From Acidobacteriota bacterium (GTDB lineage Bacteria > Acidobacteriota > Terriglobia > UBA7540), in contig QHZN01000091.1 in the NCBI GenBank assembly GCA_003225365.1, positions 1-46,892 on the forward strand: DNA of 46,892 nt, given 5' to 3'. Made by a program: the position numbers and the translations under genes. The notes beneath the pieces were generated by a model that did not search any database, had not been told where the DNA came from, and saw nothing but the letters and a program-made list of their open reading frames with translations. Below are positions 23,477 through 25,284 of the stretch, one piece after another (within the stretch, counting starts at the first letter, position 1; each line of letters starts with the position of its first letter).

Positions 23477-23509
23477 TTACGCCATTTAGCGTTACGCCAA
23501 TCGGCGTAA
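23477..23509 (+). repeat. 33-nt hairpin repeat, copy 1
   Basis: The copy reads TTACGCCATTTAGCG followed by TTACGCC-AATC-GGCGTAA. The second part is a perfect 7-bp hairpin with loop AATC. Copy 2 starts 26 bases later in the same orientation with three differences in 33. No match to a protein-coding frame was found. Confidence 0.8.
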
Positions 23510-23535
23510 ACAGTTGGGTTCCAGCCCCTTGCGTA

Positions 23536-23568
23536 TTACGCCGTTTAGCGTTACGCTAATCAGCGTAA
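23536..23568 (+). repeat. 33-nt hairpin repeat, copy 2, abutting the AAA+ start codon
   Basis: The hairpin here is TTACGCT-AATC-AGCGTAA. Relative to copy 1, the C at position 22 has become T and the paired G at position 26 has become A, so the base pair is kept. The third difference is A to G at position 8. The repeat ends one base before the ATPase ATG at 23570 and occupies the place where a ribosome site would be. Confidence 0.82.
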
Positions 23569-23569
23569 T

Positions 23570-24712
23570 ATGGCCTCGAGCGAAAACCCTTTCGTTTTCG
23601 GCGAAATCATTGACGACGTGAATTTCGTCAACCGAACTGACGAACTTAGCCAACTCGTCAGAGACTTGGCTGACGGCCAAAAAGTGTTCTTGTTATCTCC
23701 CAGACGCTTCGGAAAGAGCTCGCTGGTGGCTCTGGCCCTTCTCAAGTTGAAGAAGAGACACATTCATACCGTCAGCTTGACGGCGAGCAGCTACTCGAGC
23801 TACGCCCAATTCCTGGAAAAGTTTGCTGAGAAAGTGTTGCGAGCCGCCGGTCCTTGGGAGCGTGTTAAAGATTGGGCTACGCGATTTGGCCGGCAGGTAA
23901 AGCCCGACATCAGCATCAACATGACGACTGGGGAGATCAGTCTGTCCCTAGGCAAAGGGGCGGGTTTTGACCCCACACCGATCGCACCGGAGGTTTTTGC
24001 GCTGCCGGGAGAGTTGACCAAAAACGCCGGATTTCGGATGGCGATATGCCTCGACGAATTTCAGCAGATTTCCCGATTCAATGGGGGCTCGGTCGAAAAT
24101 GCCATAAGGAACCAGGTTCAGCAGCAAAGAGAGGTAGGTTATGTTTTCGCGGGATCTCAACCGTCGTTGATGAAGGAAATGCTTTCCGCCAAACGTCCCT
24201 TTCATAAAGCCGGCCCCCAGATGTTCCTGGACAAGATTCCGGCAAGAGACTGGAAGGACTCTATTGCCCGCCATTTTCGCAAGAGGGGCAGGACGCTTGA
24301 CGACCCGGGTTTAGATACGCTGCTGGCTTCCGCTGATTTAATTCCCTATGACGTGCAGCGTATCGCGCATGAGCTTTGGGATTACTCGGAATTGAAGGAT
24401 AAACGCAAACTCGATGCGTCAGACGTGAAGGCCGTCACTGAAAGTCTTGTCACGAGCCAGTCCACTTACTATGAGTTTCTCTGGGAACAACTTTCGGCGC
24501 GGCAACGTGCAGCGCTACAGGCGGTCGCTTACCGCGGGGCATCCGATATCTACTCCCAAGGCGTCCGCGAAGAATTTCACCTCGGGCCCGCGTCTTCTGT
24601 TCAGAAGGCACTTCAGTCGCTTGATTCAAGAGATATCCTGGATCGGTACAAAGGCAACTATTTCTTCCTGGACCCGCTCTTTCCTTTCTGGATTAGAAAG
24701 AAGGGCGCATAA
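23570..24712 (+). CDS. AAA+ ATPase of the archaeal-ATPase (COG1672-like) type
   Basis: 380 residues. N-terminus MASSENPFVFGEI, then FVNRTDEL, the Walker A variant SPRRFGKSS at 43-51, Walker B CLDEF at 160-164, and a sensor-like YVFAGSQPSLM at 191-201. A C-terminal winged helix (SARQRAALQAVAYRG, SSVQKALQSLDSRDILDRYK) covers about 300-370 and ends FFLDPLFPFWIRKKG. Such STAND-like ATPases are common and largely uncharacterised; some sit in mobile or defence contexts. The start codon lies one base after a 33-nt hairpin repeat and has no Shine-Dalgarno site, and a third repeat copy follows the stop by six bases. Confidence 0.85.
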   Translation: MASSENPFVFGEIIDDVNFVNRTDELSQLVRDLADGQKVFLLSPRRFGKSSLVALALLKLKKRHIHTVSLTASSYSSYAQFLEKFAEKVLRAAGPWERVKDWATRFGRQVKPDISINMTTGEISLSLGKGAGFDPTPIAPEVFALPGELTKNAGFRMAICLDEFQQISRFNGGSVENAIRNQVQQQREVGYVFAGSQPSLMKEMLSAKRPFHKAGPQMFLDKIPARDWKDSIARHFRKRGRTLDDPGLDTLLASADLIPYDVQRIAHELWDYSELKDKRKLDASDVKAVTESLVTSQSTYYEFLWEQLSARQRAALQAVAYRGASDIYSQGVREEFHLGPASSVQKALQSLDSRDILDRYKGNYFFLDPLFPFWIRKKGA

Positions 24713-24718
24713 GAGCGG

Positions 24719-24751
24719 CTATGCCATTTAGCGTTACCCCAAAAGGCGTAT
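24719..24751 (+). repeat. 33-nt repeat, copy 3 (decayed), downstream of the AAA+ gene
   Basis: Same orientation and length as copies 1 and 2, sharing the core GCCATTTAGCGTTAC but with six differences from copy 1 overall. Its hairpin arms no longer pair fully. The ATG of the next gene lies at its third base, so the first ten codons of that gene are repeat-derived. Confidence 0.72.
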
Positions 24752-25284
24752 TCAGCCTAAAATGGTTGGCTCGACTCAGCCTGACCGCGTTGTTTCTTCT
24801 TCCCTGCCTTTATTGGTCCCTCGACCTCCTCCTTCATTTGCTAGAAGAGCCCTGGTATCTCTTGGCGAATTTTGTCCTTCCCGTGGCAATTTCATTGGTA
24901 GCATACGCCTGCTGCGTTTGCTGGGGTCGGAGGTTGGGTTGGGGGTACGTCCTTGGTTTAAGCTTCGGGACATGGCTTGGGATATGGCTGCTCGGACCTT
25001 GGTATCTTCTCGTCGGAAGCCATTTGGTCTGGGAGCCAGTTTCAGGACCCGGTTTGTCCGCGCATGACGCTCCAAGCATGATGCTTTCTTTCCCCTTCTT
25101 ATCGACGGTCGACGTCTCAACCTACGATGGCTCGCTGCCTGCGCCGTTCTTTACGGCAATTGGTGTGGTCGGAGCCGGTTGGATATACCAGAGGCTAAGA
25201 AAATCGGGACATGCGGGCACGTACCGTGGAACCGGCGTGCGCGGGGTCCGCGGCTTTTCGACAAGCCCAGATATAGAACCGTAG
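24721..25284 (+). CDS. small multi-pass membrane protein, unknown
   Basis: 187 residues. Hydrophobic segments at about 17-35 (LARLSLTALFLLPCLYW), 45-65 (WYLLANFVLPVAISLVAYAC), 75-105 (LGWGYVLGLSFGTWLGIWLL) and 140-160 suggest four transmembrane helices, with a basic C-terminal tail. No family recognised. The first ten residues are encoded by repeat copy 3, so the true start may be a later TTG such as the one near 24766. It follows the AAA+ gene by eight bases and could be its membrane partner, which is inference. Confidence 0.55.
   Translation: MPFSVTPKGVFSLKWLARLSLTALFLLPCLYWSLDLLLHLLEEPWYLLANFVLPVAISLVAYACCVCWGRRLGWGYVLGLSFGTWLGIWLLGPWYLLVGSHLVWEPVSGPGLSAHDAPSMMLSFPFLSTVDVSTYDGSLPAPFFTAIGVVGAGWIYQRLRKSGHAGTYRGTGVRGVRGFSTSPDIEP

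Follow-up and report, generated by a model that had tools for sequence, protein, structure and literature searches.

The window, that is the whole stretch of DNA analysed here, comprises 46,892 bp and is contig C398 in a 5.16 Mb metagenome-type assembly of a soil bacterium. It contains a gene for an AAA+ ATPase framed by three copies of a 33-nt repeat. Two of these copies, at 23477-23509 and 23536-23568, had already been located in the preliminary description of this DNA, together with a third past the ATPase stop, which lies at 24719-24751. The distances given there were borne out: one base separates copy 2 from the ATG at 23570, and six bases separate the TAA at 24710-24712 from copy 3. The features are the following.

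23477..23509, + strand: distal copy, 33-nt double dyad (TTACGCCATTTAGCGTTACGCCAATCGGCGTAA), covariance model match with E 3.9e-9
23529..23534, + strand: putative -35 element TTGCGT, 17 nt upstream of TACGCT
23536..23568, + strand: proximal copy, 33-nt double dyad, putative operator overlapping the promoter, ending 1 nt before the ATG
23552..23557, + strand: TACGCT, putative -10 element within the proximal copy, with a fixed final T (repeat column 22)
23570..24712, + strand: AAA+ ATPase gene, 380 aa, SSO1545/PF01637-like, intact, single copy in the genome
23624..24259 (approximate limits), + strand: AAA+ domain with Walker A PRRFGKSS, Walker B LDEFQ and GSQ sensor strand
24497..24706, + strand: C-terminal winged-helix region with presumed recognition helix 341-353 (SSVQKALQSL), from the AF2 model, MarR_2/GMT-wHTH matches in relatives and the alignment
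24719..24751, + strand: decayed 3' copy, 6 nt past the stop codon, covariance model match with E 1.7e-6

Each 33-mer consists of two overlapping 18-bp dyads, TTACG-N8-CGTAA, which have a TTA in common and whose centres are 15 bp apart. Copies 1 and 2 differ at repeat positions 8, 22 and 27; the number of three differences and position 22 had been reported correctly before, but position 27 had been miscounted as 26. No other copy was detected in the 5.16 Mb genome by BLAST, pattern or covariance model searches. Judged by conservation across relatives, a chance origin of the repeats is excluded. In 7-8 other cassettes of ATPase gene and repeats, a 3' copy occupied the corresponding position. In the window, the first ATG of a hydrophobic 187-aa ORF (24721-25284) falls within this copy, the cassette lying directly 5' of the ORF.

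The ATPase

The motifs PRRFGKSS, LDEFQ and GS were invariant or nearly so in the 47 aligned members of the family. The AF2 model (pLDDT 88, pTM 0.85) consists of an AAA+ domain followed by a C-terminal winged helix at residues 310-379, and relatives of the window ATPase showed matches to MarR_2/GMT-wHTH domains. The presumed recognition helix (SSVQ) was kept in all dyad-bearing groups and changed in the group at 31% identity. A profile search matched the ATPase to SSO1545 (2fna) with E 1.7e-10, and Foldseek returned 2qen and 2fna as the closest solved folds (TM 0.63-0.70), followed by Orc1/Cdc6 with origin DNA (2qby, 2v1u). The window protein did not reach the gathering threshold of PF01637 (26.8 bits versus 33.2); its matches to Pfam AAA families were below cut-off yet consistent across 47 relatives, the best of which attained E 1.7e-13. 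Judged by the Walker A and B motifs and the sensor strand in the sequence, together with the winged helix and full-length fold in the model, the protein belongs to the SSO1545/PF01637-like AAA+ ATPases. NCBIfam held no name for it, and PADLOC yielded weak matches only (the window protein at E 0.016, relatives at 1e-5).

Repeat and ATPase across genomes

Homologues were sought in 84,980 species genomes, which yielded 53 loci, mostly in metagenome assemblies of Acidobacteriota. A genome of the same genus (G001) carries an ATPase 80% identical to that of the window in the same layout, with two copies upstream and one downstream; the copies have diverged and the surroundings are different. Among the close homologues, 15 (with the window) had a readable 5' flank, and in each of them the proximal copy was present and ended a few bases from the start codon. 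About half of the close homologues had a second upstream copy and most had one copy just past the stop codon.

The covariance-model search suggested in the preliminary description was carried out and tied the repeat to the ATPase in this genome and in relatives. The model matched in 7 of the 299 genomes of the class, and the six genomes with a near-type ATPase all fell within those seven. Put differently, the repeat occurred in 6/6 genomes with a close ATPase homologue (at least 59% identity) and in 1/293 others (Fisher p=7e-12; since the copies are related by descent, Fisher p-values overstate independence and are upper statements of support). The only one of the 299 genomes with a repeat and no ATPase was G139, which has a 3'-type copy. 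In 14 repeat-bearing genomes, all strong matches lay at the ATPase with one exception, a decayed ATPase locus. Looking for scattered, unlinked repeats and for homologues devoid of repeats did not refute the link that had been proposed, and covariance model and pattern searches in 299, 15 and 20 genomes led us to reject a scattered repeat.

Several loci were incomplete. The repeat of G139 (L106:1501-1533, G139:C58) is a solo 3'-type copy, possibly a remnant or scar; the 1.5 kb to each side of it contain no ATPase. At L082:1408-1533 (G030:C110), a proximal-type repeat is followed directly by the last ~30 ATPase codons; by eye, the adjoining 303-aa gene looks paralogous to the one that lies upstream of this genome's intact ATPase (L009). 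Repeats were kept in L035 (G172:C291), where the ATPase has a frameshift near residue 264-274, and in L073 (G080:C263), where ATPase homology stops after residue 119.

Upstream dyads of the form TTAY-N10-RTAA were found in 48/53 homologues as compared to 5/2682 background windows. They persisted at ~40% identity (Vicinamibacteria-type loci) and ~30% (Elusimicrobia), the range extending down to 26-33%. Locus L039 had no visible dyad and a few other members had an imperfect dyad only. In the Vicinamibacteria-type loci, successive dyads were exactly 21 bp apart, corresponding to two helical turns, with three consecutive dyads in L063. The tandem-dyad pattern occurred in 15/20 distant host genomes, always only at the ATPase promoter and in positions matching the loci of the homologue scan, and the reversed-pattern control gave 0.

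Putative promoter signature

Two features distinguished the proximal copies of the window's group from the other copies. The first is TTG at 6-8 nt ahead of the repeat (-8..-6), present in 13/15 proximal versus 1/16 other copies (p=7e-6). The second is a T in column 22 (15/15 versus 3/16, p=3e-6). The resulting arrangement, TTGnnn-17/18-TACGCT, was exhibited by the proximal copies of this group and by them only. In several of the relatives at 40% identity, TATAAT lies within the last dyad, about 6 nt ahead of the ATG. A strict sigma-70 scan reported no promoter and TACGCT is a poor -10 element, so that the promoter is put forward here on the grounds of conservation. On the sequence, symmetric sites overlap the ATPase gene's own putative promoter, the arrangement of an operator module.

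Proposed regulation of the ATPase gene

The best explanation of these data, to which we assign a probability of roughly 0.62, would be an operator embedded in the promoter, bound by the ATPase itself and controlling only the ATPase gene. This reading builds on the fold of the protein, on the intact gene and its exclusive linkage to the repeats, and on the position, phasing and promoter-specific signature of the latter. The repeats would act as DNA operators and not as RNA hairpins. In the ATPase promoter, the -10 box would lie within the copy on the start-codon side and the -35 box ahead of that copy, and the ATPase would bind the dyads via its C-terminal winged helix and thereby control, most likely repress, its own transcription. 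Cooperative binding would come from the additional upstream copies and, in relatives, from the dyads phased at 21 bp, and ATP binding or oligomerisation of the AAA+ module may constitute the switch. Binding of the dyads by the ATPase, the direction of regulation and the role of ATP are what we infer. Since the sites occur practically only at the ATPase locus, the gene would form a self-contained, self-limiting module. The nearest studied analogue that we found is Orc1-2, an AAA+/winged-helix protein with a binding motif in the promoter of its own gene (PMC9738581).

The preliminary description had proposed that the ATPase recognises, or is regulated by, its own hairpin. As a DNA operator this idea is well supported; its hairpin or RNA aspect is not. 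Several points speak against an operator bound by the ATPase. Besides the poor -10 element, the negative sigma-70 scan and the members with no dyad or an imperfect one, the 3' copy past the stop codon is unneeded for autorepression, and the winged helices in this ATPase family could bind something other than dyad DNA.

The best-matching solved relatives, SSO1545 and PABY2304, were deposited as conserved hypothetical protein and Walker-type ATPase with function unstated. With a conserved DNA site that is confined to the locus and accompanies the protein across phyla, there is a concrete candidate ligand through which the function of such ATPases can be approached.

Genomic context and possible mobility

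Beyond regulation, the presence of a 3' copy and the different neighbours seen from cassette to cassette may point to a relocating unit with repeats at its ends. In that case the repeats would serve as recognised termini of a small repeats-ATPase-repeat unit, mobilised by an enzyme acting in trans or by the ATPase together with a host nuclease, with self-regulation perhaps added. We consider this unlikely. Such a mobile cassette had been raised at the outset, and the part of the proposal that stood concerns the differing neighbourhoods and the decayed and solo copies (L082, L106). About ten cassettes in the window's class had no neighbour genes in common, and the pairs G000/G001, G063/G064 and G062/G065, with cassettes ~80% identical, kept their RecA neighbours and not their ATPase neighbours, in a control that covered one gene, RecA, and in which some ATPase flanks were short. 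Homology between L028 and L029 ended at the outer repeats, the 3' copy lay 8-21 nt past the stop codon in most cassettes of the class, and the distribution was patchy (3/37 family members).

Other expectations of a mobile unit found no support. No target duplication was seen. Empty sites with one repeat, as called for in the preliminary description, were looked for and none was found, neither with the flanks of five cassettes, joined and searched for in 13 genomes, nor with the window's downstream flank in 41 genomes and the G001 flank in 13, all of them diverged genomes; these searches returned only multi-copy neighbour genes and one-sided matches. The 3' copy was absent in L027, L030, L031, L036 and all Vicinamibacteria-type loci, so that terminal repeats do not bound both ends of all copies as they would in a mobile element. 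Several Vicinamibacteria-type loci kept their context within clades, a transposase or recombinase was absent from the unit, and no genome had more than one intact near-type copy. The ATPase DNA tree followed the RecA clades, with the window and its congener unseparated; a clade of these two was not rejected (AU p 0.39). With the protein tree unresolved and the DNA tree in agreement with the RecA groups, horizontal transfer is not claimed.

By eye, the left neighbour at L029:1-440 resembles the truncated start of an integrase-like gene just ahead of the cassette.

Both functions might also be combined. The ATPases would represent a widespread, deeply conserved Orc/Cdc6-like AAA+ class that acts solely on its own locus via cognate double dyads, and in Acidobacteriota the dyads would also delimit a minimal relocating element of one gene, selfish, self-regulated and devoid of a transposase. 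We regard this broader picture as rather improbable. If relocation proves true, the cassette would represent a mobile unit of one gene that lacks any recognised recombinase.

Possible replication origin or RNA element

A replicator-like module, with the ATPase as an Orc/Cdc6-like initiator and the dyads as the origin boxes of an integrated replicon, its origin still active or a relic, appears very improbable. The fold matches Orc1/Cdc6 with origin DNA, archaeal initiator genes adjoin their boxes according to the literature, the phased dyads are iteron-like, and distant relatives at 25% identity were found on Bacteroidales plasmids and phage-like contigs. However, the closest structures are 2qen and 2fna and not Orc1, the dyads lie on the promoter, an AT-rich unwinding stretch between boxes was not noted, and the loci reside within ordinary chromosomal contigs with differing neighbours.

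We likewise give very little credence to an RNA element, i.e. hairpins that act in the mRNA by autoregulation, processing or translation control or as an antitoxin RNA of type III toxin-antitoxin kind. This possibility drew on the 7-bp stem with C-G/T-A/T-G changes at pair 22:27 and on copy 2 taking the ribosome-binding position, and covariation had been taken initially as evidence for selection on the fold. That argument was not upheld when 31 copies were compared, in which only pair 22:27 showed many double changes (C-G 10, T-A 10, T-G 7, unpaired 4). Pair 7:12 was unpaired in 11/31 copies and the other pairs were without covariation. Across the whole 33-nt dyad, covariation equalled the shuffled mean, and shuffles attained the observed values. 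Selected RNA pairing would tolerate G.U and not A.C, and the near-equal counts of G.T and A.C appositions (27 versus 21 in the hairpins, 40 versus 36 in the full dyad) therefore leave RNA pairing unsupported. Rfam gave no match to the repeat, and a putative transcription start would fall inside or past the proximal copy. The pair counts, the slid and shuffled controls, the appositions and Rfam together led us to reject a structured RNA. The conserved TTAC/GTAA arms suit DNA. In the distant dyads, inner positions were often unpaired, with TTA/TAA and mostly C-G retained; as their outer letters were set by the search pattern, only the inner positions are informative here. The inner-position pattern and the 21-bp phasing fit a protein-binding DNA site. 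A type III toxin-antitoxin system, with tandem RNA repeats upstream of a ToxN-like endoribonuclease, is dismissed, the gene being an AAA+ ATPase.

Comparison with known systems

The SSO1545/PABY2304 Walker-type ATPases (2fna, 2qen; PF01637 ATPase_2, COG1672-like) gave the best profile match and the best full-length fold match, and share with the window protein the AAA+ domain and C-terminal winged helix. Identity in the structure alignment is 16%, however, and the window protein remains under the curated Pfam cut-off. In the papers reached, neither an operator nor a repeat was reported for these proteins; a nuclease domain is absent. Archaeal Orc1/Cdc6 with their origin recognition boxes likewise combine AAA+ and winged helix, with the gene beside its own binding sites, but their fold match to the window protein is weaker than that of 2qen/2fna. 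The non-initiator regulator Orc1-2, which binds its own promoter (PMC9738581), has a motif, ANTTTC, that is asymmetric and found across a regulon, whereas the window dyads are locus-exclusive. In AbiE-type and other autoregulated defence or toxin-antitoxin modules, a winged-helix protein reportedly autoregulates with involvement of inverted repeats (PMC3985639). Such modules and the window ATPase are both self-limiting single loci, although the latter has no partner toxin gene and only weak PADLOC matches. REP/RAYT and MITE-type elements also have palindromic repeats flanking one gene and a patchy occurrence; the window locus differs from them in having no transposase and no genome-wide dispersal of the repeats. 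A literature search, with subscription journals mostly outside its reach, found no description of the link between repeat and ATPase.

Repeats at other members of the family

Viral contigs contained no relative of the ATPase, and phage and plasmid sets contained relatives at ~25% identity only. Two of the three Bacteroidales plasmid relatives examined at this identity had a 35-bp palindrome at the promoter in a similar layout.

L169:1432-1466 and L170:1422-1456, Bacteroidales plasmids: palindrome ahead of the ATPase gene, its two 17-nt arms separated by 1 nt

As AT-rich DNA makes palindromes common, these are to be read as leads; if true, they would extend the picture of a self-regulated selfish unit across phyla.

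Other repeated motifs were observed ahead of the start codon in the group at 28-33% identity. In a relative at 33% identity (L166:1454-1510), a direct repeat with a 15-nt period (TCACACAGNNTTGCG) abuts the start codon. A subfamily of the same class at 31% identity exhibited flanking tandem or hairpin arrays (L011 1-672 and 1948-2653; L012 1254-1310 and 2826-2882), the 84-nt and about 119-nt units of which are long and unlike the window dyads.
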